Positions 16,884 through 63,962 of a stretch of DNA of 64,000 bases are shown one piece after another. Numbering within the stretch: position 1 is the stretch's first letter; every line of letters begins with the position of its first letter. The position numbers and the translations under genes were made by a program. The stretch is taken from assembly GCF_014078525.1 (NCBI RefSeq), contig NZ_MU078696.1:1-64000 (forward strand). Reading direction: 5' to 3'. Below the pieces are notes generated by a model. The model saw only the letters and a list, made by a program, of their open reading frames with translations, was not told the origin of the DNA and did not search any database. Origin of the DNA: Nitrosopumilus sp. b3. GTDB lineage: Archaea > Thermoproteota > Nitrososphaeria > Nitrososphaerales > Nitrosopumilaceae.

Positions 16884-17417
16884 CTAGAAATCAATACCTT
16901 TCTTTGCCTTTATGCCCTTCTGAAATGGATGTTTTATCTCTCTCATCTCCGTAACCAAATCCGCAATTTCAATGATTTCATCTTTAGCATAATTGCCAGT
17001 TAATACCAAATCTACGCCTCTTGGTTTTGATTTTATAATGTTTAAAACATCATCAACTGAAATCAAATTAAGATTAACTGCATAATTTATCTCATCTAAA
17101 ATAACTATGTCGTAATTTCCTGACTGAATTTTTTCATTACTAATTCTTATTGCCTCTTTTGCAATTTGTTGATGATCTTCTTTTGGACTTTTATCATCAA
17201 TTATGCCGACAAATCCTTTCCCAATTGCAACCATCTCAAATTCTGGTTCAAGTTTTTTAGATGAATCCATTTCACCATAGTGCCATGAACCTTTGATAAA
17301 TTGAATCATACAAGTTTTCTTTTTGTATCCTGTTGCACGTAATGCAATTCCTAAGGCTGCAGTTGTTTTACCTTTACCTTTTCCAGTATAAACAATGGTT
17401 AATCCATCTTCTTCCAT
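16884..17417 (-). CDS. cobO: Cob(I)yrinic acid a,c-diamide adenosyltransferase (CobO type)
   Basis: 177-residue P-loop ATP:corrinoid adenosyltransferase that attaches the 5'-deoxyadenosyl group to reduced corrinoid. The Walker A is GKGKGKTT at residues 12-19. MIQFIKGSWHYGE and the VILDEINYAVNL segment (Walker-B-like) match the CobO/BtuR family. It starts at ATG, with a TATA-like box about 26 bases upstream on the minus strand. It is divergent from cobB, placing it at the edge of the cobalamin cluster. Confidence 0.93.
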   Translation of the reverse strand: MEEDGLTIVYTGKGKGKTTAALGIALRATGYKKKTCMIQFIKGSWHYGEMDSSKKLEPEFEMVAIGKGFVGIIDDKSPKEDHQQIAKEAIRISNEKIQSGNYDIVILDEINYAVNLNLISVDDVLNIIKSKPRGVDLVLTGNYAKDEIIEIADLVTEMREIKHPFQKGIKAKKGIDF

Positions 17418-17497
17418 AAACTACATCTGATGATTCTTACTAAAAACATTGAGGATTATCAAAAATCTATCAATTTAAATAAAAATTGGTTGTAGTA

Positions 17498-18859
17498 ATG
17501 CAATTGAGAATCCCTAGAATTGTTGTTGCAGGTGCTACAAGTGGGGTAGGAAAGACATCAATTACTTGCTCAATCATCTATGGTTTACAAAAAAAAAGTT
17601 TTACTGTTCAACCATTTAAGGTTGGACCTGATTATATCGATCCAGGTTATCTTTCAAGTATTTCTAACCGTGAAACATACAACTTGGATGCTTGGTTAAT
17701 GGGTGAAAATCAACTTTTGAATAGCTTTCTTTCAAACTCAAAATCTAATATTTCCGTTATAGAAGGTGTCATGGGATATTATGATGGATTTAGCGGTAAT
17801 TCAAACTATGCAAGCACTCATCATGTAGCATCTTTAACAAAATCCCCTGTCATATTGGTTTTAGATGCAAGCAAAACTTCCCGTTCCATTGCTGCTACTG
17901 CACTTGGATTTTTGAAATTTCATAAAAATTCTCGTATATCTGGGATTATTCTTAACAAAATAGGCAGTAAAAAACATGAACTTTTGTGTAGAAGTGCTCT
18001 AGAAAAAACTAAAATCCCAATAATTGGTGTAATTCCAAAAAATCCTTTATTGCAAATCCCATCTCGACATCTTGGATTAATTTCAACATTAGAGAGTAAA
18101 ATTCTCAAACAACAAATTCAAAAAACATCTAAAATTATTTTAAAAAACATTGATATAAATCAAATAATAAAAATTACAAAAAATTCATCTGATCTAAATA
18201 AAAAATCTAAACTAACACACAAAAAAGCAAAAACTACTATCGCTGTTGCTCTTGACACTTCATTTAATTTCTACTATCAAGATAATTTAGAAGCATTACG
18301 TCGTGAAGGTGCAAAAATAAAATTCTTTAGTCCTGTTAAAGATAAAAAAATCCCAAAATGTGATGGTCTTTACATTGGTGGTGGTTTTCCTGAAGTTCTA
18401 GGTAATTCTCTTGAAAAAAACCAAATCATGAAAAAATCAATAAAAAAATTATCTGAAGACAGTCTTCCTATTTATGCTGAATGTGGTGGATTAATGTATT
18501 TGACAAAATCCATATTATCTGAAAATAAAAAATACAAAATGATTGGCCTATTTGATGCTGAAACCAAAATGACAAAGAAAATGACACTAAATTATACAAA
18601 AGGTAAGATTATTTCAAAAAATTCAATATCTGAAAAACTCCATAATTTTCAAGGACATGAATTTCACTACTCTCATTTAGATTCTGTTTCATCTGACTCA
18701 AAATATGCTTATTCTTTAGAAATAGGTGAAGGAATTAAAAATCATCAGGATGGATTAATTCAAGATAATACTTTAGCATCCTATGGTCATCTCTATTTTG
18801 ATAGCTCAAATTATGCAGAAATTTTTGTTAAAAACTGTATAAAATATTCAAAGCGATGA
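17498..18859 (+). CDS. cobB: Cobyrinic acid a,c-diamide synthase
   Basis: Amidates the a and c side chains of the corrin ring using glutamine and ATP. The N-terminal half is a dethiobiotin-synthetase-like ATPase with the P-loop ATSGVGKTS, then KVGPDYIDPGY and EGVMGYYDG. The C-terminal half is a class-I-like glutaminase with the nucleophile elbow AECGGLMYL and the GHEFHYS segment. ATG at 17498 is chosen; a longer reading from TTG at 17486 would sit almost on the AT-rich box at 17474-17483. The 3' end overlaps the convergent cobH gene by 12 bases. Confidence 0.95.
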   Translation: MQLRIPRIVVAGATSGVGKTSITCSIIYGLQKKSFTVQPFKVGPDYIDPGYLSSISNRETYNLDAWLMGENQLLNSFLSNSKSNISVIEGVMGYYDGFSGNSNYASTHHVASLTKSPVILVLDASKTSRSIAATALGFLKFHKNSRISGIILNKIGSKKHELLCRSALEKTKIPIIGVIPKNPLLQIPSRHLGLISTLESKILKQQIQKTSKIILKNIDINQIIKITKNSSDLNKKSKLTHKKAKTTIAVALDTSFNFYYQDNLEALRREGAKIKFFSPVKDKKIPKCDGLYIGGGFPEVLGNSLEKNQIMKKSIKKLSEDSLPIYAECGGLMYLTKSILSENKKYKMIGLFDAETKMTKKMTLNYTKGKIISKNSISEKLHNFQGHEFHYSHLDSVSSDSKYAYSLEIGEGIKNHQDGLIQDNTLASYGHLYFDSSNYAEIFVKNCIKYSKR

Positions 18860-19489
18860 TTCCGCTCTAATAAGTTTGAAAATAGCATTAATTGTGGCAG
18901 ATACTGACGAACTTCCTCCTTTTCTACCCATATTTGTGATAAATGGAACTTCTTCCAACTTTGCTAGTTCTGCTTTTGATTCAGCAGCACAGATAAATCC
19001 TACTGGAATTCCAATAATTAAAGCAGGTTTTACTATGCCTTCTTTGACCATTTGAATTACTTCTAAAAGTGCTGTAGGAGCATTTCCTATCGCAACAACT
19101 CCTCCATCAATATCTGATATTGCTTCTCTCATTGATACTTGTGAGCGAGTTTTACCTTCTTTTTTTGCTAATTCCATAATTTCTGGTTTTGAAATATTGC
19201 AAACTATGTTATTTCCAAAATCTTTAGGATTTTGTTTATTCATTCCTCCAATTACTCCATTTACATCAACTACTATACTACAGCCATTTTTTAAAGCATT
19301 CATTCCACTTTGAATTGCATCTTTGTGAAAAATCAACTTATTTTTATCTGCAAAATCAAAATCAGCTGTTGAATGAATAATTCTTCTCACAATAGGCCAT
19401 TCTTTTTCATTGAATTCATGAGGGCCTATCTCATCTTCAATCATTTGCATACTTGCATCTTCAATTGATTGGCCTTTCTTAGTTTGCAT
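18848..19489 (-). CDS. cobH: Precorrin-8X/cobalt-precorrin-8 methylmutase
   Basis: Moves the C11 methyl group to C12 to give hydrogenobyrinate or cobyrinate. The conserved IIHSTADFDFA segment supplies the catalytic His. GGVVAIGNAPTAL and the VGFICAAESK segment are also characteristic. ATG at 19489 (213 residues) is chosen over TTG two codons upstream because GAGGT lies five bases before it. The start lies 11 bases inside the end of cbiX, so translation is coupled. The 3' end overlaps cobB by 12 bases. Confidence 0.95.
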   Translation of the reverse strand: MQTKKGQSIEDASMQMIEDEIGPHEFNEKEWPIVRRIIHSTADFDFADKNKLIFHKDAIQSGMNALKNGCSIVVDVNGVIGGMNKQNPKDFGNNIVCNISKPEIMELAKKEGKTRSQVSMREAISDIDGGVVAIGNAPTALLEVIQMVKEGIVKPALIIGIPVGFICAAESKAELAKLEEVPFITNMGRKGGSSSVSATINAIFKLIRAESSL

Positions 19490-20231
19490 CTTCAACCTCT
19501 TTTGCTCTCTCTAATATCAAATCTATCATTTTTTGATCTGTTCCTATATGTTTTGTAATGTATGCCTTCTTTATTGTAGATTTTTCAAGTGCTGGAATCA
19601 AATCATTATTAATATCAGTTTTAACATGTGCACCTTCATGAAGAAAATAAAAAACAATTATCAACACTTTGGGATTGTCTTTTTCACATTTTTTGATTCC
19701 TTCAAAAATATCAGGCTGTTCTATTTCCAGCCAACACCTGCTAACATTCCTGTAGGAATCTGTCAATTCATTTACAATGTAATCTAATGATCTCTGTGCA
19801 TTAGGATCTTTACTACCGTGCCCAATTATCATTACATCCACTTCCTTATTTGGAAGTATAACTTCATTTTCTTGCAGAGTTGTAGATATTCTGTTTTCAA
19901 CAACATCTACCAAAGTTTTATGCATGCTCATTTGTTTTGTGACTAGAAATTTTACTTTGGTGTCTTTTTGAAATTTCATTACATCAGTTACCGCATTTTT
20001 TACTTTTTTACCAGGATACAAAAAGTATGGAACTATAGTTAAGGAATCTATATCTTGTTTTAGACATTTAGGAATTCTATCTTCAATGTATGGAGGCTCT
20101 ACCTCAAGAAAACAAAAATCAGTAAAAACATAGTCACCTTTAGCCTTGATTCCTTTACAAATTACTTCTAATTCTTCAGAAGCTTCTCTTTCTCTACTTC
20201 CTCTATCAATCAATAATAACCCTTTTTTCAA
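19479..20231 (-). CDS. cbiX: Sirohydrochlorin cobaltochelatase CbiX, two-domain form
   Basis: Inserts Co2+ into sirohydrochlorin, the first committed step of the early-cobalt B12 route. The 250 residues hold two repeats of the chelatase fold. The second repeat has the usual IGHGSKD (about residue 138). The first reads LLIDRGSRE where family members usually have HGSR, so its His is replaced by Arg. A second active-site His region is visible in the second repeat (FYFLHEGAHVKTD). The start is TTG, overlapping the cbiG stop, and the end overlaps cobH: a tight operon. Confidence 0.9.
   Translation of the reverse strand: MKKGLLLIDRGSREREASEELEVICKGIKAKGDYVFTDFCFLEVEPPYIEDRIPKCLKQDIDSLTIVPYFLYPGKKVKNAVTDVMKFQKDTKVKFLVTKQMSMHKTLVDVVENRISTTLQENEVILPNKEVDVMIIGHGSKDPNAQRSLDYIVNELTDSYRNVSRCWLEIEQPDIFEGIKKCEKDNPKVLIIVFYFLHEGAHVKTDINNDLIPALEKSTIKKAYITKHIGTDQKMIDLILERAKEVEDAN
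19495..19499 (-). promoter_or_regulatory. Shine-Dalgarno site deciding the cobH start
   Basis: On the minus strand GAGGT lies five bases before the ATG at 19489, inside the end of cbiX. It favours this ATG over the TTG two codons upstream. Confidence 0.5.
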
Positions 20232-21280
20232 TTCATAATCCTCGCTATTGCTATTGTCAAATTTGGTGGGAATTTCTGTTTTTCTACAATTAATTCTCCT
20301 CCAGAAACCTTGATTGCAGCAGCTTCAGAAACACTTGCAGTTCCCTCAAATGCTTTTACTGTTTCAGAAGGGTTTGGTGCAGAAATCTCTGCCAAGTTTT
20401 CTCTATCTACATATTCTACTGGAATTCCCATTTCTTTACCAAGATCAATTAATCCTTGTACATCTTGTGGTTTTTTTATTGATACTAATTTTGCAATAGA
20501 TTTTGAACTAAGTTTGAATTTTTCCAAACAAGTTTCAATTCCTTCTCTAATAGTTTCTTTTGTAGTATCCCAATGTAATCCGATTCCGATTACTAAACTT
20601 GGAGGACGATAAACCACAGATTCTTTTATTATATCATCATCTATTATTTTGTCAGAAATTATCAAACATGCTTTTGAATTTGATTTTTTTAAATCTTCAA
20701 TATTTTCATAAATTACAACATTCTTTGGTAATTTTTTATACCAATCTTTATTCCCTGTATCTTGAAGAACACCTATGGACTCTTCATTTACCATATGTGC
20801 ACTAATTTTTGTTACAGTAGAATCATCATCAATTTTCCAACCAAATTCTTTTCCAACCAAATCAACAGATATTGTTTTGTTTACATCTGCTGCAGTGGTA
20901 ATTACTGATATTGCCCCAAGTTTTTCTGCAATTTCTTCTGTAAGTTCATTAGCACCTCCAATATGTCCAGATAAAACACTAATAACAAAATTCATTTTAT
21001 CATCAATTACAATTACAGCAGGATCCGTTTTTTTATCTTTCAAATGTGGTGCAATTAATCTAATGACTGCACCTAATGAAAAAAGACAAATTAATGCATT
21101 ATTCCTCTTGAAAAGTTCAACAATTTTCTCAGATGTAGGCTCAGAATACCATATTATTTCATTATTCTCATTTGATAGTTTTGATGGTGCAAAAATTTTC
21201 CAGTGTGGAAATAACTCCTTTAGATTTTCACCAATTTTTACTCCATTTTTAGTAATAGCAAGTACCGAAGTTTTTTCCAT
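20228..21280 (-). CDS. cbiG: Cobalt-precorrin 5A hydrolase CbiG
   Basis: Opens the delta-lactone of cobalt-precorrin-5A and releases acetaldehyde. Visible family blocks are the N-terminal LFSLGAVIRLIAPHLKDKKTDPAV, the VSVLSGHIGGAN-type segment (ISVLSGHIGGAN), the ITTAADV block, and the C-terminal GIGLHWDTTKE domain. ATG at 21280 is preferred to a TTG two codons earlier. It lies 31 bases after cbiD and overlaps the start of cbiX. Confidence 0.94.
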   Translation of the reverse strand: MEKTSVLAITKNGVKIGENLKELFPHWKIFAPSKLSNENNEIIWYSEPTSEKIVELFKRNNALICLFSLGAVIRLIAPHLKDKKTDPAVIVIDDKMNFVISVLSGHIGGANELTEEIAEKLGAISVITTAADVNKTISVDLVGKEFGWKIDDDSTVTKISAHMVNEESIGVLQDTGNKDWYKKLPKNVVIYENIEDLKKSNSKACLIISDKIIDDDIIKESVVYRPPSLVIGIGLHWDTTKETIREGIETCLEKFKLSSKSIAKLVSIKKPQDVQGLIDLGKEMGIPVEYVDRENLAEISAPNPSETVKAFEGTASVSEAAAIKVSGGELIVEKQKFPPNLTIAIARIMN

Positions 21281-21311
21281 ATTCAAAATCTTCCAGCTTT
21301 AATAAAATACC

Positions 21312-22415
21312 TTACTCTTCAGATTTTCTAGCTAAAATATTCCCATTAAAATCAAAAAGTATTACTTCAATTGGAACCTTTCCTTCTGAATGCTTTCTCA
21401 TATGTTTATGCGTCTCACCACAAATTAAATCAAAAAAACCTTCTATCTTATTTTCTAGAATTATCTCCGAGACATGTCTTGCTGTATTAGCTTTTTTGAT
21501 TTTTTGAATAACATTTTCATTTGCGTTACACCTTTTTGCTAATTCAGATAGAAAACTCATATCGACTTTTGATCCTTTCACATGCGTTTGTTTTACCCCT
21601 GCCGCCATTTTTGCAAGTTTTCCGATAAAGCCAACTACATATGCTTTTTTGATATTTTTTTTACTGCATTGCTGAATAGTATATCCCGAAAAATCCCCCA
21701 TCTGAACAAAACAATGCTCAGGTAAATCTACTATCTTTTTTGCAAAATCTTCACTTCTACCCCCAGTTGTAAGTACAACAGTATCATTCCCCATTGCAAT
21801 TGCAACATCTAGATTTTGCCTAATTGATGCTGCATAAGATGCAGTTGAAAATGGAATTACTATACCACTAGTTCCTAAAATTGAAATTCCGTTAATTATT
21901 CCTAATCTAGGATTATCTGTTTTAGGTCCTAACTCTTTACCTTTAGGAACCGAAATTACAACTCTAATTCCATTTTTCAAAAGAATTTCTTTCCCAGTTT
22001 CTCTTAAATTTTCTGTAATCATTTTTTTCGGAACAGGATTTATTGCAGGTTTATTAATTTCTAAACCTAATCCTGGTTTGGTTACAATTCCTACTCCTTC
22101 TCCACCATCAATTTCAATTTCGTTTATTTTGTTAGTTATTGATAATTCAACAATTATCTCTGCCCCATGGGTTACATCCGGATCATCCCCACCATTTTTA
22201 ATCACAGAGCATTTTGCATTATTCATTTCATATTCACAGGAATGCACAGGAATCTGAATGAAAGATCGTTTTGGTAATAGAATATCGACATTTTCTATTT
22301 CCTTTTGATTTATTATTGCCAATAATGCTGCTTTAGCTGCTGCAGTTGCTGAACTTCCAGTAGTATACCCTGTCTTTAGTTTTACCCTTTCTTCTTCCAC
22401 ATATGTTAATTTCAT
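21312..22415 (-). CDS. cbiD: Cobalt-precorrin-5B C1-methyltransferase CbiD
   Basis: Methylates C1 of the corrin precursor in the early-cobalt route. The 367 residues start with the signature LKTGYTTGSSATAAAKAAL. They continue with the KNGGDDPDVTHGAEI block, GVGIVTKPGL and the TTGGRSE segment, all typical of CbiD. It starts at ATG. It is the first gene of the minus-strand operon cbiD-cbiG-cbiX-cobH and is divergent from the SDR gene at 22495. Confidence 0.95.
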   Translation of the reverse strand: MKLTYVEEERVKLKTGYTTGSSATAAAKAALLAIINQKEIENVDILLPKRSFIQIPVHSCEYEMNNAKCSVIKNGGDDPDVTHGAEIIVELSITNKINEIEIDGGEGVGIVTKPGLGLEINKPAINPVPKKMITENLRETGKEILLKNGIRVVISVPKGKELGPKTDNPRLGIINGISILGTSGIVIPFSTASYAASIRQNLDVAIAMGNDTVVLTTGGRSEDFAKKIVDLPEHCFVQMGDFSGYTIQQCSKKNIKKAYVVGFIGKLAKMAAGVKQTHVKGSKVDMSFLSELAKRCNANENVIQKIKKANTARHVSEIILENKIEGFFDLICGETHKHMRKHSEGKVPIEVILFDFNGNILARKSEE

Positions 22416-44114: not shown

Positions 44115-46301
44115 CTATCTGTAATATGAGGCAACTAGTTTTTCGCCTAACTTTAGATCTTTTTGTTCTCTGACTTTTTTGACTGCTTCTTCAAAGTGCT
44201 TCATTGTTACTTTGGCATCAATTGTAGTTTTTTCAATATCTTTTGTATCTGGATGTGAATCCAAAAATTCGTGGATTACCAGAGATACTGCTGTATTTGC
44301 AATTGATGCTGTATCTGCACCACTTAGTCCATCAGTTAGATCAGCAATCTTCTCAATGTCTACATGTTGAGGATCACTTGCATCATCAATTATTGGAATT
44401 TTTGCTGCATTAATTTTTAATATGCTCTTTCTACTTTCTTTATCTGGAAGTGGAATTTGAATAATTTTATCAAATCTACCTGGTCTTAATAATGCAGGAT
44501 CTATCATATCTGCCCTATTTGTAGCAGCCAAAACAATAACACCGTGCATGTTTTCCATTCCATCTAATTCTGTAAGTAATTGACTGACAACTCTTTCAGT
44601 AACAGCTGTTTCTCCACCTGCACCTCTGATTGGTGCAATAGAATCTATCTCATCAAAGAAGACAACACATGGGGCAGACTGACGTGCTCTTTTGAAAATC
44701 TCTCTGATTCCTCTTTCTGATTCACCTACCCATTTTGATAAAAGTTCGGGACCTCTAACAGAAACAAAATTTGCTTCACTTTGTGTGGCTACTGCTTTTG
44801 CAAGTAATGTCTTACCTGTTCCACTTGGTCCATGAAGCAAAATTCCTCTTGGCATGTTATGCCCTAATTTATCATAAAGTCCCGGATATTTCATAGGCCA
44901 TTCAACAGCCTCTTGAAGTTCACGTTTAACATCTTCTAATCCTCCAACATCATCCCATTTTACATCCGGATTTTCTATGAAAACTTCTCTCATTCCAGAT
45001 GGCGTTACTTCAATCAAAGCTTTGAGGAAATCATCATTGTTAACGATTAATTTATCTAAAGTTTCAGGTGGAATTTTCTCTTCTTCTAAATTAAGAATAG
45101 GTAGCAATCTTCTCAAGCATTTCATTGCAGCTTCTTTACAGAGATATTCCAAGTCTGCTCCAACATAACCGTGACTGACCGCTGAAATTTTATCAATATT
45201 TACATCATCAGATAGAGGCATGTTTCTACTATGAATTGCAAGAATGTCTTTTCTTCCTTTTTTATCTGGAACTTTAATCTCAATTTCCCTATCAAATCTA
45301 CCTGGTCTTCTAAGTGCAGGATCAATTGCATTTGGTCTGTTTGTTGCAGAAATAACAATTACTTTACCTCTAGCTTCTAGACCATCCATTAATGACAACA
45401 TCTGAGAAACAACTCTTCTTTCAACTTCTCCAGTAACTTCTTCTCTTTTTGGAGCAATGGAATCTATTTCATCCACAAAGATAATTGATGGAGCTTTTTC
45501 TCTTGCCTCTTTGAAAATTTCTCTTAGTCTAGCTTCACTTTCTCCGTAAAACTTACTCATAATTTCAGGACCAGAGATACTGATAAAATGTGCATTACTT
45601 TCATTGGCTACTGCTTTTGCAAGTAATGTCTTACCTGTTCCAGGAGGGCCATACAATAAGACACCTTTTGGTGCTTCTATTCCCAACTTTTCAAAAATCT
45701 CTGGATGTCTTAATGGAAGCTCAATCATCTCTCTGACTTTCTTAATCTCATCTGTTAAACCACCAATGTCTTCATAGGTTACTTGTGGAACTCCACGTAA
45801 TGTTTCTCCTTTTTCTGCAATATGAAAAACAGTTTTTTGAGTCACTAAAACAGCATCTGCTGCGGGAGTAACTCCAATAACTTGAAAAGTTAAACGACCA
45901 CCAAAATATGGTACCATTACATTATCACCTTTAATCAAAGGAACACTTTCTAGGGCATCTGCAAGATATCTTTCATCAATTGGAGGAATTGCTTCTAATG
46001 GAGCAACTACTACTTTTTCTGCAGCAACTGCTTTTATTTTTCTAACAGAAATTGTATCTCCAATGGCAATTCCTGAATTATTTCTTCCAAGCCCATCGAT
46101 TCTAATAATTCCCTTTCCTTCATCAGATGGATACAAAGGAAGGCATTTTGCAACTGTTCTTCTTTTACCTTTAATTTCGATAACATCGCCTGTAGAGGCA
46201 TTTAGAGTATCCATAGAATCATAATCTATTCTGGCTACTCCTCTCCCAACATCTCTGGTATATGCTTCAAGAACTTTGAGAGAAAGACCGCTTTGGCTCA
46301 T
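44115..46301 (-). CDS. cdc48: Cdc48/VCP-type AAA+ ATPase
   Basis: 728-residue double-AAA unfoldase. The N domain (residues 5-95, double-psi barrel, [13 protein letters not shown]) and CDC48 domain 2 precede AAA module D1, with Walker A GPPGTGKT at 218-225 and Walker [16 protein letters not shown]2 has Walker A GPSGTGKT (about 492-499) and Walker [13 protein letters not shown], with an [20 protein letters not shown] sensor region. The C terminus ends SYYR, an HbYX-like tyrosine motif for docking on a proteasome (YYR). It starts at ATG and is divergent from rpl2. Confidence 0.96.
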
Positions 46302-54313: not shown

Positions 54314-55978
54314 ATGGCATTAATTCAGATATCCAATCAATCAACAAAAAATTTAGGTAAAAAATCTACAATTAGATTCACTCAAAGTATCTGTCCAGAC
54401 TGTAATATGATTCTGGATGCTGAAGTATTTGAGAGAGATAACAAAGTCTTCATGTCAAAAGTTTGCCCTACTCACGGTGAATGTGAGGAATTATACTTTG
54501 GTTCTTATGAAATGTACAAAAAATTTAGTACATACTGGATGGATGGAAAAGGTGCTCATTCTCCAAATGTAATGATTGACAAATGTTCATGTCCTAATAA
54601 CTGTGGATTGTGCTCAAACCACCTATCACACAGTGGCCTTGCAAACATGATTGTAACTAATAGATGTGATTTAACATGCTGGTATTGCTTCTTTTATGTA
54701 AAGAAAGGTCTTGAAGGCGCTTACATGTACGAGCCAGATCATACTCAAGTAAGAGCAATGATGAAGACACTAAGATCTGAAAGACCAATTCCAGGAAACT
54801 CTATGCAGATTACTGGTGGTGAACCAATGCTTAGAGAAGATATTGCTGATGTTATTAAAATAATGAAAGAGGAAGGTGTTGACCATATTCAAATGAATAC
54901 AAATGGTATTAGACACGCAATGGATCCAGAAGCAGCACGTGAAGTAAGACTTGCTGGATGTAACAACTTGTATCTTTCCTTTGATGGTGTAACTGCTAGA
55001 ACAAACCCAAAGAACCATTGGGAAATTCCATATGCACTTGATAGTTGCAGAAAGACAGGTACAACTGTAGTATTTGTTCCAACAGTAATCAAATCAATTA
55101 ATGACCATGAATTAGGTGGAATTATCAGGTATGCACAAAAGAACATGGATGTAGTTCATGCTGTAAACTTCCAACCAGTATCACTAACAGGAAGAATGGG
55201 TAAATCTGAACGTGAAAAATATAGAATCACAGTTCCTGATTGTGTTCAAAGAATTGAAGAACAAACAAATGGCGAAGTAACAGTTGATGACTGGTTCCCA
55301 GTCCCAAGTTGTATGCCACTAACAAACGTAATTGAAGCATTCTCAAGCAAACCAAAATATGAATTATCAATACACTTTGCTTGTGGTGCCGGAACTTACA
55401 TTTTTGAGGATGCAGATACAAAGAAGTTTGTTCCATTAACAAAATTTTGTGATATTCAGGGAATGTTAGAACTCTTTGAAGACAAAGCAGAAGAGATTCG
55501 CTCTGGTAAAAACAAATACTTTACAATGCTTGAAGTTGTAAGAAAACTCAAAGGTTTTGTTGATACAAAGAAACAACCAGCCGGATTAGATTTAGCAAAG
55601 ATGTTTGGTAATATTCTCATGAAGAGATCATTTGATTCAGTTGGTTCATGGCACGTCAAGGGATTGTTCCTTGGTATGATGCACTTTCAAGACAAATACA
55701 ATGAAGACCTTGAGAGACTACAAAGATGTGATATTCACTATCTTACTCCAGACCTCCGAATAGTTCCATTTTGTGCATTCAATGTAATTCCAGAATGGTA
55801 TAGAGACAGAATCCAAAAGAAATATTCTATCACTGTAGAAGAATGGGAAGAAAGAGAAGGTGTAAAACTTGAAGATGGTCTTTACAGAGGTCTTATGAGA
55901 CGTGGAGCAGGTGATGAACTTGCTGCTGGCTGTGCAAAAAGTCAAATGTTCCATGATGCAGCACAAGCTACAATGTAG
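54314..55978 (+). CDS. tes: Radical SAM protein, tetraether lipid synthase (Tes)-like
   Basis: 554 residues. The order of motifs follows the MJ0619/Tes family. An N-terminal CPDC with VCPTHGECEELYFG (Cys27, 30, 51, 57) comes first. A second Cys cluster follows, CSCPNNCGLCSNH (Cys91-100), then the radical SAM cluster RCDLTCWYC (Cys118, 122, 125) in CxxxCxxC form and QITGGEPMLREDI. Tes joins lipid tails of two archaeol molecules to make membrane-spanning GDGTs, the lipids of this lineage. Several paralogues exist in related genomes, so a relative with another substrate is possible. It starts at ATG with a clear TATA box and a possible operator. Confidence 0.75.
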   Translation: MALIQISNQSTKNLGKKSTIRFTQSICPDCNMILDAEVFERDNKVFMSKVCPTHGECEELYFGSYEMYKKFSTYWMDGKGAHSPNVMIDKCSCPNNCGLCSNHLSHSGLANMIVTNRCDLTCWYCFFYVKKGLEGAYMYEPDHTQVRAMMKTLRSERPIPGNSMQITGGEPMLREDIADVIKIMKEEGVDHIQMNTNGIRHAMDPEAAREVRLAGCNNLYLSFDGVTARTNPKNHWEIPYALDSCRKTGTTVVFVPTVIKSINDHELGGIIRYAQKNMDVVHAVNFQPVSLTGRMGKSEREKYRITVPDCVQRIEEQTNGEVTVDDWFPVPSCMPLTNVIEAFSSKPKYELSIHFACGAGTYIFEDADTKKFVPLTKFCDIQGMLELFEDKAEEIRSGKNKYFTMLEVVRKLKGFVDTKKQPAGLDLAKMFGNILMKRSFDSVGSWHVKGLFLGMMHFQDKYNEDLERLQRCDIHYLTPDLRIVPFCAFNVIPEWYRDRIQKKYSITVEEWEEREGVKLEDGLYRGLMRRGAGDELAAGCAKSQMFHDAAQATM

Positions 55979-56070
55979 ATGGTGTTTTCTTATCTTGAAA
56001 CATTAATTTCATTAATTTGATTTTATATTGTTGAAAAAAGTTTTTCAATAAAAGAAATAGATTTGTTTTA

Positions 56071-56505
56071 ATGAAAGACGAATTATCTACATCTCAAACT
56101 ATTGTATTAATTGAAGTTTTAAGAATTTTAAGAGATGAAAAAAATATTACTGCTCGAAAAAAAATCTATGAAGCACATATTGATAAAAAATCAAAGATAA
56201 AATCACTAAACAAAGAAACTAGATATTTTATTGAGAAACTAAATGGTGATTTTGATGAGATTGGATTTCTTGTTGAAGAATTTGGTATAAAAGATAAATT
56301 GTTTTCATTATATTCAGACACAATCCGCAGAGTTTGGATAGCTATAGAAAATGATATTCAAAGAGAACAAGATGAAAGAAAAAAGAAAGATCCCGCAAGT
56401 ACTCAATATGGGTATTTTCTAACATGGTTAGCTTCTGAGGCAAAAAAATATAGAGATAAAAACAATTTGGAAGAACCAGGATTCACAGATCTAAGGATAA
56501 TCTGA
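56071..56505 (+). CDS. Small helical protein, possibly DUF4760-like
   Basis: 144 residues, mostly helical and rich in Lys, Glu and Arg. The pattern (a helix with TARKKIYEAH, then FDEIGFLVEEFGIKD and RRVWIAIENDIQREQDER) resembles the DUF4760 family often found with membrane proteins, but the match is from recall. No membrane segment. It starts at ATG 92 bases after the Tes-like gene and 60 bases before the glycosyltransferase. Function unknown. Confidence 0.6.
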   Translation: MKDELSTSQTIVLIEVLRILRDEKNITARKKIYEAHIDKKSKIKSLNKETRYFIEKLNGDFDEIGFLVEEFGIKDKLFSLYSDTIRRVWIAIENDIQREQDERKKKDPASTQYGYFLTWLASEAKKYRDKNNLEEPGFTDLRII

Positions 56506-56565: not shown

Positions 56566-57582
56566 ATGAGAATTTTAATGATTTCACCTACAAGCTCTGG
56601 AATAGGAGGAATATCTCAGCATGTTCAAGGGTTAAAAAAATTCTTGGAAAATAAAGGAAATGAAGTTGAAATAATTTCTTCAGAAAATACTCTTACAATA
56701 CCCATTAAAAAACTTAAAAATCCAAGCTTTATGATTTCATCTTTTTTTAAATCAAAATTTAAAAAAAATTTTGATATCATTCACGCCCAAAATCCTATAT
56801 CTGCTTTAGCAATGAAAAATGTAAAAGGAAAAAAAATCCTTTCATTACAAGGAAATTATTCTGAACAAATTTTATTACTACATGGGAACACTGCCGGAAC
56901 TTTATCTGAAAAGTTAGAAAAAAATGCACTGCAATGGGCTGATGTAATTACTGTTCCTTCCAAAGAAATGTATGAAGAATTCACAAAAAATGGTTACAAA
57001 GTTTATTATGTTCCAAATGCAATTGATATCTCATCATTTCCAAAAGATAAAGATAGAAGATATGAAAAACAACTAATCTATGCTGGAAGATTATCTGAAG
57101 AAAAAGGAATTTTGGACTTGCTACAAATTTCAGAAAAAATCTCTAATGACATACATCTGATTATTATTGGATCTGGTCCTGAAGAATCAAAAATAAAAGA
57201 AAAAATAAAAAATAAATCTAACATTCATTTTCTGGGTTATCAATCAAAAGAAAATACAATAAAATTAATTCGAGGTTCTGACATACTTATCCAGCCTTCT
57301 ATAATGGAAGGTGGAACAAGTTCTACTCTTTTAGAAGCAATGGCATGCAAAATCCCAATTATTGCTACATCCGTTGGTGGAAATAAAGAAACAGTAATTC
57401 ATATGAAAACTGCATATGTTGTTACACCAAATCATCCTGATCAGATCTATGATGCAATAAATGATTTATTAGATAATCCTGAAAAACGAAAAATTCTAAC
57501 AGAAAATGCTTTTGAGATTATTACTAATTATGACTGGGAACATGTTGGACAAAAATACTTAGATGTCTATAATGCTGTCTAG
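56566..57582 (+). CDS. Glycosyltransferase family 4 (GT-B)
   Basis: 338 residues. The N-terminal GT-B domain begins RILMISPTSSGIGGISQHVQGLKKFL, with the Gly-rich loop that binds the acceptor side. The C-terminal domain has YAGRLSEEKGILDLL and the EX7E-like block EGGTSSTLLEAMACKIPIIA, typical of GT4. It starts at ATG. It opens a plus-strand run of glycan genes with the radical SAM enzyme 45 bases downstream. The sugar donor is unknown. Confidence 0.93.
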   Translation: MRILMISPTSSGIGGISQHVQGLKKFLENKGNEVEIISSENTLTIPIKKLKNPSFMISSFFKSKFKKNFDIIHAQNPISALAMKNVKGKKILSLQGNYSEQILLLHGNTAGTLSEKLEKNALQWADVITVPSKEMYEEFTKNGYKVYYVPNAIDISSFPKDKDRRYEKQLIYAGRLSEEKGILDLLQISEKISNDIHLIIIGSGPEESKIKEKIKNKSNIHFLGYQSKENTIKLIRGSDILIQPSIMEGGTSSTLLEAMACKIPIIATSVGGNKETVIHMKTAYVVTPNHPDQIYDAINDLLDNPEKRKILTENAFEIITNYDWEHVGQKYLDVYNAV

Positions 57583-57626
57583 TTTTTTGATTCATATGTT
57601 TTTATATTAAATTTGAAGGTTATAAG

Positions 57627-58967
57627 ATGAAAACAATGAAAGTGAGTCTAATTCGAGCCAGATATCCAAGTGTTTGGGAACCAACAAATTTGATGTATGT
57701 TTCATCTTTCATTAAAGATAGATACCAAGGTAATCTTGAGGTACAAATTCTTGATGGCTTTTTTGATTCTGATGAAAAAATTCTAAATCAAATTTCAGGT
57801 TCTGATTATGTAGGTTTTAGTGGAACAACACCACAAGTTCCACATATTAAAAAATTAAGTAAACTAGTTAAGAAAGAATATCCTTCTATGAAGACAGTTG
57901 CTGGTGGATATGGGCCTTCTTTACAACCATTTCTTTTCCTAAATGATCCTACAATTGATCATTTGATAGTAGGTGAAGGAGAACAATCAATGTTGGATGT
58001 ACTTAATGGTACTGCTACAGAAAAATTAGTTAGTAATCAACCTATAATTGATGTTGATACAATTCCTAATCCTGATAGAGACTCTATTGATTTGAACAGG
58101 TACATTGCAATTGCTGAAAAAGATGAAGGGAGACGAGTAACCTCCATTATGACTGAAAGAGGCTGTGCATTTGGATGTACATTCTGTGCAGAAGGTGAGT
58201 TTGGAACCATATGGAGAAAAGCTGATCTTAGCAATAAAAAACTGGAATATGAAAGAGCTGTTAGATTACGACAAAGAAGTGCAAAATTAGTTGTACAAGA
58301 AATGTTAGAAGTTAGAGATCGATTTAACATTACTTTTTTTAAAATGAACGATGCTGAAACCAATCCTTCCAAACCTCATTTCGTTAAACTGTGTAAGGAA
58401 ATGATCAAACAAGAAGTAAATGTTCCATGGGGATGTAATATGAGATGTGATAAAGTAGATGATGAAATGTGTGAATTAGCAGTTAAAGCTAACTGTGAAG
58501 AGTTTTGGATGGGATTGGAATCTGGTTCTCCTGAAATTCATCGCGATATTAACAAAGGCACAACTGTTGAGATGATCAAAAGAGCATTTGATGTTTCCAA
58601 AAAATATGGAATAAAACGAAGGACTTATGCATTACTTGGAACTCCTTTGGAATCTTATGAAACAATTAAACAAACTGAAGAACTAATTGATTATGTTGAT
58701 CCTGAAATAATTGGATTTTCAATTCTTGCACCATATCCTGGTACGGCATATTGGAAGCCTGAATATGATAAACTAGATTGGTCACAAATTGATGAATTTT
58801 CTAACACCACATGGAGTTCAAGTAATCTTACTAATGAAGAATTACGCACCGAACAAGCACGATTAATTGAAAAATACTCTGATAAACTTGCACCAATAAT
58901 TAGAAAAAAGCAAAAATTAGGAATGGGTGGTTCTCAAACACTAGACTCCATAATGGGTGCAATGTGA
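57627..58967 (+). CDS. B12-binding radical SAM protein
   Basis: 446 residues. The N-terminal ~130 residues are a cobalamin-binding Rossmann-like domain (SDYVGFSGTTPQVPHIKKL, then VAGGYGPS and VGEGEQ) without DxHxxG, as in many class B radical SAM methylases. The radical SAM cluster is RGCAFGCTFC (Cys180, 184, 187). FWMGLESGSPEI and ILAPYPGTAYW follow. It starts at ATG (a second ATG four codons on is possible). It sits between a glycosyltransferase and a PLP aminotransferase, so a sugar C-methylation or rearrangement is plausible. Hopanoid- or lipid-type roles of other members cannot be excluded. Confidence 0.85.
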   Translation: MKTMKVSLIRARYPSVWEPTNLMYVSSFIKDRYQGNLEVQILDGFFDSDEKILNQISGSDYVGFSGTTPQVPHIKKLSKLVKKEYPSMKTVAGGYGPSLQPFLFLNDPTIDHLIVGEGEQSMLDVLNGTATEKLVSNQPIIDVDTIPNPDRDSIDLNRYIAIAEKDEGRRVTSIMTERGCAFGCTFCAEGEFGTIWRKADLSNKKLEYERAVRLRQRSAKLVVQEMLEVRDRFNITFFKMNDAETNPSKPHFVKLCKEMIKQEVNVPWGCNMRCDKVDDEMCELAVKANCEEFWMGLESGSPEIHRDINKGTTVEMIKRAFDVSKKYGIKRRTYALLGTPLESYETIKQTEELIDYVDPEIIGFSILAPYPGTAYWKPEYDKLDWSQIDEFSNTTWSSSNLTNEELRTEQARLIEKYSDKLAPIIRKKQKLGMGGSQTLDSIMGAM

Positions 58968-58994
58968 TTATTATCTAATTTGAAGGATTAAAAA

Positions 58995-60152
58995 ATGATT
59001 GATCGTTTTGGCCAAGAAGAAATTGCCTCTGTAATTCAATCCATAAAAAATGCATCTCTTTTATCAGGATATACAAATAAGTTCTTAGGAGGAGAAACAC
59101 TACAAAAATTTGAAAAAGACTTTGCGCGATTCCATAACTGCAAATATGGAATTTCAGTAAATTCTGGAACTAGTGCATTATTTGTATCACAACTTGCAGC
59201 AGGAGTAAAAAATAACACCAAAGTTGCTGTCCCATCAATTACGTTTACTTCTACCATATCTCAAGTTGTTGCTTGTGGTGGAATACCTGTTTTTACAGAT
59301 ATAGATTCTGAATCCTATTGTATGGATTTTGATTTTAAAAAGAAAGTAAAGTTTGCAATTCCAGTACATTTGCTAGGACATCCGTGTAAATTTGAAATGA
59401 TAAAAAAAATGAAAGAAACTGGAATTTTTGTAATTGAAGATTGTGCACAAGCAATGGGTGCAAAATACAAAAATAAATCAGTTGGAAGTATGGGGGATTG
59501 TGGGATTTTTAGTTTTCAAGAAACAAAACATATCACTACACTGGGTGAAGGTGGAATTATTGTGACAAATAATGAAGAATTTGCAGAAAAATGTAGGCGT
59601 ATTAGAAATCACGGTGAATATTATAAAGATGATGATGATATAGGATTTAATTTTCGATTGACTGATACTCAAACAGCATTTGGTCTTGTTCAGCTAAAAC
59701 GGTTACCATCTATCTTGAAAAGTTTCCGCAAAAATGCTAATTATATAATAAAAAATCTTCCTGAAGTTATCATTCCCCCTATGATTCCCAAGAACATAGA
59801 TCATTCATTTTTGATTTTAGGTTGTAAATATGATAAAAAAAAATCTATAGTTTCAAGGGAAAAATTTCTAGAAAAACTAACAAAAAACAGAAAAAAATTC
59901 CTAAAAAATGAACAAGTATCTGATATCAAAGGCTTGAATTTTAGACCTGGAAAAATAATTAGCTCTGGCTACAAAACAACTCAATATGATGTCCCTCTTT
60001 ATAGAAAATATCGACCAAAGAAAAAATTACAAAATGCTGAAGATTTTATCCAAAACAGCTTTTTCTTAGATATTCATAGATGGAGAACAAAGAGTGAAAT
60101 TGATGAAGAATTAAAAATTTTACATAGAACCAGCAAACAACTTAGTAGTTAA
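58995..60152 (+). CDS. DegT/DnrJ/EryC1-family PLP aminotransferase
   Basis: 385-residue PLP enzyme that transfers an amino group to a keto-sugar nucleotide. Key residues are Asp149 (VIEDCAQAMG) and the PLP Lys178 in SFQETKHITTLGEGG, near the KHxTTGEGG form of perosamine- and ArnB-type enzymes. The middle region binds the nucleotide sugar. It starts at ATG with GAAGGATT nearby as a possible ribosome site. It lies 27 bases after the radical SAM gene. The product would be an amino sugar for the surface glycan. Confidence 0.93.
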   Translation: MIDRFGQEEIASVIQSIKNASLLSGYTNKFLGGETLQKFEKDFARFHNCKYGISVNSGTSALFVSQLAAGVKNNTKVAVPSITFTSTISQVVACGGIPVFTDIDSESYCMDFDFKKKVKFAIPVHLLGHPCKFEMIKKMKETGIFVIEDCAQAMGAKYKNKSVGSMGDCGIFSFQETKHITTLGEGGIIVTNNEEFAEKCRRIRNHGEYYKDDDDIGFNFRLTDTQTAFGLVQLKRLPSILKSFRKNANYIIKNLPEVIIPPMIPKNIDHSFLILGCKYDKKKSIVSREKFLEKLTKNRKKFLKNEQVSDIKGLNFRPGKIISSGYKTTQYDVPLYRKYRPKKKLQNAEDFIQNSFFLDIHRWRTKSEIDEELKILHRTSKQLSS

Positions 60153-60185
60153 TTTATTAAAATGATGTTATTTTCATAATGTGAT

Positions 60186-61184
60186 ATGTCTATTTTAACT
60201 AAAAGATCCATTCTTGTAACGGGGGGAACTGGTTCAATTGGTACTGCACTAGTCAAAAAAGCAATTCATGATAAAGCAAAACTAATTCGAGTTTTTAGTA
60301 ACGATGAAAATGGTTTATATGAAATGGAATCTGAATATGGAACTCAAAACATTGAATATGTTATAGGTGATATCCAAAACGAAGAAAGAGTATCGGAACT
60401 TGTAAAAGGGATTGATATTGTTTTTCATGCGGCTGCTCTAAAACATGTAGACAGATGTGAATTAAATCCACTAGAAACAATCAACGTCAATATTATAGGA
60501 ACAAAAAATATTGCAAAGGCTGCACAAAAAGAAAATGTAAAGAGGATGATTTTAATCAGTACTGATAAAGCTGTTAATCCAATTGGTGTTATGGGTGCAA
60601 CAAAGTTATTAGGTGAAAAATTAATCTCTGCTGAAGCATCCCGTAAATCAAAAACTATATTTGCATCAGTAAGATTTGGAAATGTCTTTCAAACTAGAGG
60701 TTCAATTTTACCTAGAATTGAACAACAAATCAAAAATGGCGGTCCAATCACTCTTACTGACAAAAATATGAAGCGATTTTTCATGACAAAAGATGAAGCA
60801 GTAAAATTAATCATTCATGCTACTAATCTTGCAAAAGGTGGAGAAACTTTTATTCTTAAAATGCCATTATTACGTTTGGAAGATCTTTTTGAAGTCATGA
60901 AAGAAATTTTAGCACCAAAATATGGTTATGATCCAAAAAAAATAAAAACCAAACTTACAGGAACAAGGCCTGGAGAAAAACTAACAGAATATTTATTGAC
61001 AAATTTTGAAATGAGCCAAGCCTTAGAAACTAAAGAATTTTTCATTTTACCATCATCCTTTAATTATTCCACAAAAATAACTTACCCAAATTCCAAAAAA
61101 CCAAAAAATCTTTTAAATTATTTTGAAAATATAAAACCTCTTACAAAAAAAGAAATTAAATCAATACTCAACCAAATTTATTAA
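60186..61184 (+). CDS. NDP-sugar 4,6-dehydratase, CapD/PseB type
   Basis: 332 residues. The Rossmann motif is GGTGSIG (13-19), and the active-site set is STDKA (125-129) with MGATK (136-140). The usual Tyr is replaced by Met136, while Asp127, Lys128 and Lys140 remain, as in the UDP-GlcNAc inverting 4,6-dehydratases PseB/FlaA1. The YVIGDIQN and FGNVFQTRGSI segments agree. It starts at ATG 33 bases after the aminotransferase gene. It could supply the 4-keto sugar that the aminotransferase then aminates. Confidence 0.93.
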   Translation: MSILTKRSILVTGGTGSIGTALVKKAIHDKAKLIRVFSNDENGLYEMESEYGTQNIEYVIGDIQNEERVSELVKGIDIVFHAAALKHVDRCELNPLETINVNIIGTKNIAKAAQKENVKRMILISTDKAVNPIGVMGATKLLGEKLISAEASRKSKTIFASVRFGNVFQTRGSILPRIEQQIKNGGPITLTDKNMKRFFMTKDEAVKLIIHATNLAKGGETFILKMPLLRLEDLFEVMKEILAPKYGYDPKKIKTKLTGTRPGEKLTEYLLTNFEMSQALETKEFFILPSSFNYSTKITYPNSKKPKNLLNYFENIKPLTKKEIKSILNQIY

Positions 61185-61190
61185 TTTACA

Positions 61191-62762
61191 TCATGAATTA
61201 TTTTTTAAAAATTTATCATAATTTATTTTGAAAATTTTTGTAGAATATTGAGAATTAGAAGAATCAAACTCTTTTTCAAGATAGGGATATTTTTCATCAT
61301 TTATAAAAACATCATATAATCTGGACTCTTTATCATTTTCAACTATAATATGGGTAAGATTATTTTTATTTGAAGCAATAAAATCATCAATTTCTTGATG
61401 ATTTGGCATGGTTATAACTGAAATTTGTTGGGGAACACTAAATCTAATTGATTTTTTATCCACTCTGTCTAAATCATAAAATTTTTTGAATTCATTAAAT
61501 TCTTTAGGATAATTTAGAGGCTCCAAATATTGACTATTGTTATAATCATTAATTGTTTTTGGTGATTCTGAGATTTTTTGTGCAATTATCAAGTATTCAT
61601 CATTTTGATTATTGTCAATTTTTAATGCTGAATATACACATGATGAAATTACAACAAAGATAATTATCACAGTAAAAGCAATTTTTTTATTAAATCTTTT
61701 ACCTATTTTTTCTATTGTTAGCATTGACAAAATTACAAAAATGGGATATAAGAAGAAAAAATATCTTCCATCTTGAATAGAAATTGCATATGCATAAAAT
61801 GCAGGCATTGACATCAAAACTAAACCTGCAAAAATTGTCTTTATTTTATAATTCCAATTCTTAAACATCAAAATAAATCCTAATGGTAAGAAGGGCAGAA
61901 AAATCGGAATTAAATTCCAACCAAGATATTTTGGAAAATTCACCAATCCATTAACAATAAAGTTTATTCCTGTAATATCTGTGGATTTTTTAGGATCTAC
62001 AATATGCGTTTCTATGCTGTTAATAGCTCGTCCAAATGCCATGTCGCTATCATATATTTCAAATTGAATTAAAGCCATAGGTAAAAAAATCACAGAAAAA
62101 ATTAATCCTGATATTGTGATATCTGTTATTTTTCTCTTGATATTATCACTTCTAAAAATAATCATGATCAAAAATACCATTAAAACAAAAATACCCTCAG
62201 ATCTTACAATCGTACCGAACCCAATAATCAAAAATGAGATATATGTGATTTTTTTATTTTCATTAAAATATAAAAGAAAACTAATTACAATCAAAAAAAT
62301 GTATAATGAATCACTAATACCAAATAAGGAATTTTGAATTAAATGAGGTTCAAATCCTATAATTAATGCACCAATTAAACAATGGGATTTGTTAAAAAAT
62401 TTTTTACATAGAAAATATGTTGGTAAAACCGTCAATGAGGAAATAGAAATTGATAAAATCTTTTGTAAATTCATATAATCTATAACATTTTGCAATTCGA
62501 AACTCGAAAAGAATGCAGAAAGAAAAATTCCCCATCCTGGATTAGCTAATGAATAATTCACGGGTAATTGATTATTGATTTTAATATCTAAAGCATAAAA
62601 AAAATAATTCAATGCATCATTAGTAAGTGGTATTTCAAAATTCATAAAGTAAATTCTTATGATAAAAGAACTTAGGACAATAGCGGTTAATATCACTAAT
62701 ATTTTTTTTCTTGAAATTGTTTCTTCAAATTGTGTATTCTGAGTCTTAACATTTTTTGTCAT
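61191..62762 (-). CDS. Membrane glycosyltransferase, PMT/ArnT-like (GT39/83)
   Basis: 523 residues with about a dozen hydrophobic spans and a soluble C-terminal part. An early loop, EIPLTNDALNYFFYA, has the Asp expected for the lipid-sugar site of GT-C enzymes, and the ALANPGWGIFL-like ANPGWGIFLS stretch is typical of PMT_2. ATG at 62762 is chosen because GAGGT lies seven bases upstream; a TTG at 62783 is the alternative. It is convergent with the dehydratase by 6 bases and follows the flippase on the same strand. The donor would be a lipid-linked sugar. Confidence 0.8.
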   Translation of the reverse strand: MTKNVKTQNTQFEETISRKKILVILTAIVLSSFIIRIYFMNFEIPLTNDALNYFFYALDIKINNQLPVNYSLANPGWGIFLSAFFSSFELQNVIDYMNLQKILSISISSLTVLPTYFLCKKFFNKSHCLIGALIIGFEPHLIQNSLFGISDSLYIFLIVISFLLYFNENKKITYISFLIIGFGTIVRSEGIFVLMVFLIMIIFRSDNIKRKITDITISGLIFSVIFLPMALIQFEIYDSDMAFGRAINSIETHIVDPKKSTDITGINFIVNGLVNFPKYLGWNLIPIFLPFLPLGFILMFKNWNYKIKTIFAGLVLMSMPAFYAYAISIQDGRYFFFLYPIFVILSMLTIEKIGKRFNKKIAFTVIIIFVVISSCVYSALKIDNNQNDEYLIIAQKISESPKTINDYNNSQYLEPLNYPKEFNEFKKFYDLDRVDKKSIRFSVPQQISVITMPNHQEIDDFIASNKNNLTHIIVENDKESRLYDVFINDEKYPYLEKEFDSSNSQYSTKIFKINYDKFLKNNS

Positions 62763-62769
62763 TATTTTT

Positions 62770-62774
62770 ACCTC
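62770..62774 (-). promoter_or_regulatory. Shine-Dalgarno site deciding the start of the membrane glycosyltransferase
   Basis: On the minus strand GAGGT lies seven bases before ATG at 62762. It favours this ATG over the upstream TTG at 62783, and contrasts with the leaderless starts seen elsewhere in the window. Confidence 0.55.
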
Positions 62775-62801
62775 ATTTTTCAATAAACATGATCAGACTC
62801 T

Positions 62802-63962
62802 TCATTTGATGCTTACCACGAACATCTTGTTTGATAAAATATAAAATATCGCTTGCATGGTTTCTGCTAATACTAATGAAATAGCAATTCCAATGGCCCC
62901 TAGGGATTCCCCAAGTAAAATTATAGTTGGAATTTGAATTCCAAGAAATATTACTGATGCAATAATTACAAATTTACTTTTTTCCATTCCTAGAAATTTT
63001 GATATGAACATTAAACTTATGGTTCTTGGAATGATCGCTATTATCATAATTTGAATTATTCCAATAGTTTCGATATATTGTGGAAACAACCAATTTATCA
63101 GATTTGGTCCTATGAATATTCCAGTTATTGCAATAAATATGGAAAAAACTATGATAATTTTTTTAATTTTGTCATTATTTTGTCCACTAGAATCTCTAGG
63201 TAACGTATATTGCATTATAATATTTGGCAATAATGTTGCAATAACTAAAAATTGCATTCCTAAATGATAATTTCCTAGTAAACTTAAACCAAACAATGGT
63301 CCAATAATCAATTTATCAGTATGTCCACTAAGTGCTTTTACCAGATCAGTCCCATAACTGTTCAACATAAATCCTAGTCTTGGTTTTATTACTGAAAACT
63401 GAATTCCTTTCAGTTTGATTTCCTTGTATATTACAGGAATAAAAATTAGAAAAGATAATGCATAACCTAGAATAACTCCCGTATTTTGATAAAATTGAAA
63501 CAATGAAAGAATCAATGCCACCATGAGGATTTTTTGTGAAATCAAAAAAATTGCATATTTTTTAAATTGTTTTAAACCCATTAATGTGGCTGTACCTAAA
63601 TTGAATACAACATACAATAAAACATATGCTGATAATGCTGGATTATTTAATCCAAAGAAAATTGCAATTGCAGCAACAGAGCTTCCAATTATTGTAGCAA
63701 TAAAAGTTGCAGGGATAATATTGATATTTTTTGCAGTGTATACAATAGTAGTATATCCTGAACCTATGGATGCAACTGTTGAAGCAATTCCTGCAATTGC
63801 AAGTAAATAGCTTAGTTCACCATAACCTTCTGTTCCAATTAAAGCTGCTAAATAGAACCAAAATAAGCCTGAAATTCCACTACTTACAATGTTTGCAATT
63901 CCTATCGAAGTTAAATCTTTTAATCCACCAAAATTTTTAATTTTACTAAAAAATCTACTCAT
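62802..63962 (-). CDS. Wzx-type polysaccharide flippase (MATE/MVF superfamily)
   Basis: 386 residues with about twelve hydrophobic segments spread over the length. The N-terminal SIGIANIVSSGISGLFWFYLAALIGTEGYGELSYLL is the typical opening of the polysaccharide-export flippases. It starts at ATG (63962). It lies upstream of the membrane glycosyltransferase in the same direction. It would flip lipid-linked glycan across the membrane for the cell surface. The region beyond it runs to the window edge without another gene. Confidence 0.88.
   Translation of the reverse strand: MSRFFSKIKNFGGLKDLTSIGIANIVSSGISGLFWFYLAALIGTEGYGELSYLLAIAGIASTVASIGSGYTTIVYTAKNINIIPATFIATIIGSSVAAIAIFFGLNNPALSAYVLLYVVFNLGTATLMGLKQFKKYAIFLISQKILMVALILSLFQFYQNTGVILGYALSFLIFIPVIYKEIKLKGIQFSVIKPRLGFMLNSYGTDLVKALSGHTDKLIIGPLFGLSLLGNYHLGMQFLVIATLLPNIIMQYTLPRDSSGQNNDKIKKIIIVFSIFIAITGIFIGPNLINWLFPQYIETIGIIQIMIIAIIPRTISLMFISKFLGMEKSKFVIIASVIFLGIQIPTIILLGESLGAIGIAISLVLAETMQAIFYILSNKMFVVSIK

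Follow-up and report, generated by a model that had tools for sequence, protein, structure and literature searches.

Which sugar is made by a glycan gene cassette that includes a cobalamin (B12)-binding radical S-adenosylmethionine (SAM) enzyme, and what does that enzyme do to it? The question is raised by the first 64 kb (the window, i.e., the whole stretch of DNA analysed) of a 536-kb contig (NZ_MU078696.1) of Nitrosopumilus sp. b3, the genome of which comprises 1.79 Mb on nine contigs. Four + strand genes at 56566–61184 encode a GT4 glycosyltransferase (GT4a), the B12-binding radical SAM enzyme (rSAM1), a DegT-family aminotransferase, and a PseB/CapE-type dehydratase (PseB1). We propose that the products of these four genes synthesise a single unusual amino-deoxy sugar and add it to a cell-surface glycan, with rSAM1 most likely as C-methylase, a proposal that, taken as a whole, we consider evenly poised between right and wrong. 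That rSAM1 acts on a glycan sugar, whatever the reaction, is considered highly probable.

A conserved four-gene cassette

The cassette comprises GT4a (56566–57582; PF00534, 131 bits, E 4e-38); rSAM1 (57627–58967; 446 aa; PF02310, 61 bits; PF04055, 64.7 bits); a PseC-like, pyridoxal phosphate (PLP)-dependent aminotransferase of the DegT/DnrJ/EryC1/StrS family (58995–60152; PF01041, 251 bits); and PseB1, a UDP-N-acetylglucosamine (UDP-GlcNAc) 4,6-dehydratase of the PseB/CapE/FnlA group (60186–61184; PF02719, 317 bits), with 44, 27, and 33 bp between consecutive genes. A GT-C-like integral membrane protein (61191–62783; sub-threshold matches to PMT_2, 24.5 bits, NF047440, 45.9 bits, and STT3) and a Wzx-like polysaccharide flippase (62802–63962; PF13440, 24.4 bits, cut-off 23) follow on the – strand. 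For these six genes, the positions, strands, and families given in a preliminary description of this DNA were confirmed with the open reading frame list and with Pfam and NCBIfam profiles.

In a survey of 95 Nitrosopumilus genomes (one genome per species), rSAM1 orthologues were found in three: the window genome (code G000), Nitrosopumilus sp. ECS24A2, and Candidatus Nitrosopumilus salaria BD31, the latter two being assemblies of 85–87% completeness. All three are at the same locus, with 92–93% identity; the next match in Nitrosopumilus has 29% identity, and the closest among 300 genomes sampled across the order 36%. The DegT partner occurs in the identical three genomes and in none other of the 95. 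Gene order is common to the three carriers (Tes, a hypothetical gene, GT4, rSAM1, DegT, dehydratase), with identities of 80–83% for GT4, 92–93% for rSAM1, 82–84% for DegT, and 76–82% for the dehydratase. The only rSAM1 orthologues found thus sit in the same cassette, and the refuting observation named in the preliminary description (orthologues mostly outside glycan loci, or an established lipid or tRNA substrate) was not made. Two further species keep the four closely spaced + strand genes together, which rules out chance grouping. The GT-C-like protein and the flippase, which the preliminary description had listed in the same locus, have 82 and 72% identity to their counterparts in BD31 but 34 and 39% in ECS24A2, and the conserved unit is therefore limited to the four + strand genes. 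Purifying selection acts on all four, most strongly on rSAM1, which has a pairwise ratio of nonsynonymous to synonymous substitution (dN/dS) of about 0.05 against about 0.10–0.14 for GT4a, DegT, and dehydratase (approximate values, dS 0.75–1.04).

Parts of the cassette are found elsewhere. PseB1 homologues with 65–77% identity occur in six further Nitrosopumilaceae genomes, and GT4a homologues follow Tes in other genomes without rSAM1 (52–58% identity where PseB1 is present). The GT4a homologue directly adjoins the dehydratase, with nothing between, in genomes G114 and G162 (another genus); the two are separated by an opposite-strand sugar epimerase-like gene in G225, G220, and G320, and by a different DegT (31%) and one further gene in G331. 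Because GT4 and dehydratase adjoin without them in G114 and G162, rSAM1 and DegT appear to be a two-gene add-on to an older GT4–dehydratase module; loss elsewhere is the alternative.

Domains, fold, and relatives of rSAM1

rSAM1 consists of a B12-binding domain (residues 8–124) and a radical SAM domain (residues 178–354), both of which pass the Pfam cut-offs (PF02310, 32.1 bits; PF04055, 29.5 bits). By this architecture it is a member of the cobalamin-binding radical SAM superfamily, and probably binds cobalamin. The cluster motif is CX3CX2C and reads GCAFGCTFC, its cysteines (180, 184, 187) being invariant in 24 relatives. An AlphaFold2 model (mean predicted local distance difference test score 82.6; predicted template modelling (TM) score 0.85), searched with Foldseek, confirmed the B12-radical SAM fold; the closest solved structure is that of AprD4 with paromamine (PDB 6fd2; TM 0.71–0.74), followed by TsrM, MgmA, OxsB, and TokK. 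AprD4 is likewise the top PDB match by phmmer (3e-16) and by profile (6e-54). Just after the Cys motif, an insertion of about 16 residues (residues ~190–211) is present in all three orthologues and in 0 of 21 other aligned relatives; it is modelled at low confidence and is possibly a substrate lid.

NCBIfam gives 24 models that match rSAM1 with E up to 1e-3, all of them below their cut-offs: BchE scores best (125.1 bits, cut-off 481.35), and others are HpnJ (95 bits), ladderane (91 bits), PhpK (87 bits, cut-off 600), and AprD4 (NF033070; 71 bits, cut-off 500). A phylogeny of 35 relatives places the three rSAM1 proteins at the end of a long stem (1.79), next to an enzyme of G110; this join is weak (92/84) and was flagged as a possible long-branch artefact, and a nearer known clade was rejected on these grounds. 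At the G110 locus (C39) itself, the distant B12-radical SAM gene is accompanied by RmlC, DegT, an aldo-keto reductase, and a sugar C-methyltransferase domain, an independent association of this enzyme type with deoxy-sugar genes within the same order of archaea. A viral, plasmid, or phage origin of rSAM1 was also rejected: no close relative was present in viral contigs, and plasmid and phage matches have only 22–27% identity, those on plasmids being BchE and other radical SAM proteins.

The predicted amino-deoxy sugar

PseB and CapE both convert UDP-GlcNAc to a 5-inverted 4-keto-6-deoxy-N-acetylhexosamine (HexNAc) nucleotide. The best PDB relatives of PseB1 are 6bwc, CapE (3vvb), and PseB (2gn4); with the NCBIfam models of PseB (257.9 bits, cut-off 407.75) and FnlA (227.6 bits, cut-off 730) it falls below both equivalog cut-offs. 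At its active site (STDKAVNPIGVMGATK) Met replaces the Tyr of the short-chain dehydrogenase/reductase (SDR) motif YxxxK, as in CapE (3vvb, STDKAAYPINAMGISK). PseB1 thereby has the MxxxK by which CapE and FnlA are recognised, and reads MGATK where a second dehydratase of the same region has YGATK. The DegT enzyme has a lysine at the expected PLP position (FQETKHITTLGEGG), as an aminotransferase rather than a ColD-type dehydratase, and scores 190.8 bits with PseC (TIGR03588), below the cut-off of 423.5. Because this lysine is kept, amination would be the natural next step, at a position predicted to be C4.

The adjoining 4,6-dehydratase and DegT genes, for which PseB and PseC are the best NCBIfam models, resemble the PseB/PseC and CapE/FnlA pathways. 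Unlike PseB/PseC, the cassette scores below the equivalog cut-offs, is without PseH and PseG, and has a radical SAM gene added. In the proposed pathway, PseB1 would convert UDP-GlcNAc to the 4-keto-6-deoxy-HexNAc nucleotide and DegT would aminate C4 of that keto sugar; rSAM1, with SAM, a 4Fe-4S cluster, and probably cobalamin, would alter the carbon skeleton of the resulting UDP-4-amino-4,6-dideoxy-HexNAc, most likely by C-methylation; and GT4a would then move the modified sugar onto the growing lipid-linked glycan. Cobalamin synthesis genes in the same window (16884–22415) are a possible source of the cofactor.

C-methylation is the single best guess for rSAM1, and about an even one, because methylation is named as the commonest reaction of the cobalamin radical SAM subclass (PMC11659888) and because gentamicin synthesis offers a precedent (PMC5461906), in which the B12-radical SAM C-methylase GenD1 and the PLP aminotransferase GenS2 work side by side on an amino sugar. 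GenD1/GenS2 and GenK (gentamicin; class B radical SAM methylases) share with the cassette the use of a B12-binding radical SAM enzyme and a PLP aminotransferase on a sugar, and differ in having an aminoglycoside substrate and actinomycete hosts; they were compared by description. The methylases TsrM, TokK, CysS, and MgmA share the B12 plus radical SAM architecture and match the rSAM1 fold at E 1e-19 to 1e-14, with 14–20% identity and other substrates: tryptophan, pantetheine-linked antibiotic precursors, and protein glutamine.

Several points weigh against this proposal. The reaction is unreadable from homology, since every family model stays below its cut-off, and the closest solved fold is that of a dehydratase (AprD4), not a methylase. 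The cassette is without a 4-amino N-acetyltransferase, and the co-occurrence of rSAM1 and DegT, seen in three carriers at one locus, could be explained by linkage alone. The earlier suggestion of a surface-glycan amino-deoxy sugar on which a B12-radical SAM enzyme acts fits the evidence, whereas the C-methylated or rearranged product that it also suggested is an inference, with deoxygenation as a rival.

Other reactions on the same sugar

In that rival reading, which we regard as unlikely, rSAM1 would resemble AprD4 and remove water from a vicinal diol of its substrate by a radical route, so that the amino sugar loses a further oxygen, with no cobalamin methyl transfer. AprD4 is the closest solved structure by phmmer, profile, and fold, is of similar length, and acts on an amino sugar. 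The two enzymes differ in the cluster motif, which is CX3CX3C (GCPYPCRFYC) in AprD4 instead of CX3CX2C, and membership of rSAM1 in AprD4 was rejected on this difference. In AprD4 the B12-like domain is also matched weakly (the A1 profile barely aligns to its N-terminal region); rSAM1, by contrast, passes the Pfam cut-off for B12 binding and gains only the 71 bits mentioned above with the AprD4 model. AprD4 further works with the reductase AprD3, and no AprD3-like protein is present among the cassette genes, the only SDR there being the PF02719 dehydratase; another SDR gene lies at 94109 of the contig.

Some other cobalamin-radical reaction on the same sugar, such as ring contraction as by OxsB, oxidative cyclisation as by BchE, or epimerisation, is no likelier than deoxygenation: BchE is the best NCBIfam model and OxsB is among the top fold matches, but scores are far under the family cut-offs and no specific feature favours such reactions.

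C-methylation of an amino-deoxy sugar remains the preferred reading, with most of the remaining probability falling to deoxygenation or another radical rearrangement, and the surroundings of the cassette bear on whether the substrate is a sugar at all.

The Tes–mtnA glycan island

The cassette is the first module of a glycan gene block of about 50 kb that starts after Tes, a core gene for tetraether lipid synthase (54314–55978, + strand; NF045702, 692.5 bits, cut-off 450), and ends at mtnA (contig position 106829), the interval itself running from window position 55979 to contig position 106828. It continues for about 43 kb past 63962, where the preliminary description had let the glycan region stop. 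Its content includes glycosyltransferases, RmlA/RmlB, an FdtA-like cupin, two NeuB-type synthases, GMD, Wzx, sulfatases, the second dehydratase, a second B12-radical SAM gene (rSAM2), and a phosphonate module. Between Tes and the cassette lies a 144-aa hypothetical protein (56071–56505, + strand) without a Pfam or NCBIfam match, kept in all three carriers with 67–75% identity.

Tes was found in 30 of the 32 near-complete Nitrosopumilus genomes, with up to 100% identity. The Tes–mtnA interval was read in 20 other genomes of Nitrosopumilus and related archaea; where both ends could be read, its length varies from about 4 kb to over 50 kb, and its gene content is very different between genomes. 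Such differences in size and content at one fixed site make the interval a hypervariable glycan island; with its linked glycosyltransferases, sugar-nucleotide enzymes, flippase, and variation between genomes, it has the defining features of a surface-glycan gene cluster.

By a PF02310 search, five of the 32 near-complete genomes have long B12-radical SAM genes, eight in all: three in G111 (one below the cut-off), two in G000, and one each in G090, G114, and G153. Seven of them lie between Tes and mtnA, and the eighth (G153) on a contig of glycan genes. The same search also gave three families present in most genomes (~148, 840, and 290 aa), the members of which in the window genome are without the radical SAM cysteine motif. 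Counts are of detectable genes, as PF02310 may overlook divergent B12 domains. With every B12-radical SAM gene detected in these genomes in a glycan context, lipid, tRNA, and phosphonate roles are unlikely.

A membrane-lipid enzyme, forming rings in or methylating glycerol dialkyl glycerol tetraethers, is accordingly judged very improbable for rSAM1. Such a role would suit its position three genes from Tes, the 91–95 bits scored by lipid B12-radical SAM families (HpnJ, ladderane), and a distant relative (30%) that adjoins a Tes-like gene in G064. Tes is, however, nearly universal whereas rSAM1 is present in 3 of 95 genomes, and rSAM1 is therefore unlikely to be an enzyme for a core lipid such as crenarchaeol, a candidate role that was rejected on this distribution. 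The genes conserved alongside rSAM1 are those for GT4, DegT, and dehydratase, and in other genomes the slot next to Tes is filled by glycan genes or AglB.

Least credible of all is a phosphonate methylase similar to Fom3 or PhpK, to which the phosphonate module of the island (contig 100082–103770) and the PhpK score (87 bits, cut-off 600) might point, but which was rejected because ECS24A2 and BD31, in assemblies of the completeness given above, have no true phosphoenolpyruvate (PEP) mutase but only a 32–33% paralogue of that superfamily, which G000 has beside its true PepM, and because the complete Tes–mtnA island of ECS24A2 is without the module.

Fate of the sugar

The preliminary description had placed an AglB gene and cobalamin synthesis genes in the window, and both are present. 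The AglB/STT3 oligosaccharyltransferase (13748–15883, + strand; PF02516, 103 bits) has the WWDYG motif. Homologues of it with 53–63% identity and WWDYG stand directly after Tes in six genomes (G147, G165, G135, G235, G123, G126). It is plausible that the product of the cassette reaches the surface layer (S-layer) through AglB; the flippase, sulfatases, and phosphonate genes of the island also suit a separate surface polysaccharide. Judged from gene content, the island may thus provide N-glycans via AglB, a flippase-exported polysaccharide, or both. The S-layer of N. maritimus has 17 N-linked glycan densities per subunit, the chemistry of which is not derivable from the map (PMC11153153); the N-glycan of Nitrososphaera viennensis has sugars of unusual composition, and in N. 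piranensis N-glycosylation was not detected (PMC12153357).

In the open-access literature, we found no B12-radical SAM enzyme described as taking part in the synthesis of archaeal surface glycans. For an unusual coat sugar in marine ammonia-oxidising archaea, one of the most abundant microbial groups of the ocean, the cassette supplies named genes, a short list of carriers, and a reaction open to testing. The confinement of B12-radical SAM genes to one variable island suggests a part in coat diversification, possibly against viruses.

Further features of the island and window

rSAM2 (548 aa; contig 92442–94088) is a B12-radical SAM protein unrelated to rSAM1, beside a DUF115/MptE-like gene; a recent duplication was rejected, as rSAM2 falls in a separate clade of the tree. 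The rSAM2–DUF115 pair recurs in glycan loci of G090, G114, G300, G153, G043, and G225 (rSAM2 identity 64–74%). The highest number of B12-radical SAM genes seen is in the Tes–mtnA island of G111, which has three different kinds.

The phosphonate module encodes a nucleoside triphosphate (NTP) transferase, a split phosphonopyruvate decarboxylase, PEP mutase, an iron-dependent alcohol dehydrogenase, and two sulfatases; its phosphonate enzymes score below equivalog cut-offs. The module also occurs in the islands of G090, G135, G156, and G339, which suggests a phosphonate-decorated glycan. A neighbourhood described for N. maritimus (PMC9381506) likewise holds glycosyltransferases, arylsulfatases, and phosphonate synthesis genes together; unlike there, the module in the window genome is located at the far (mtnA) end of the island, and it is absent from that of ECS24A2.

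The cobalamin genes of the window are CobA (16884–17417; over the NCBIfam cut-off), CobB/CbiA (17486–18859; CobB over the NCBIfam cut-off), and CbiC, CbiX-like, CbiG, and CbiD (18848–22415; CbiD over the NCBIfam cut-off, the other three below). A CDC48 ATPase is encoded at 44115–46301. Inside the island, at contig 76838–78268, lies the gene for a DUF4910/DUF2172 aminopeptidase-like protein with a winged helix.

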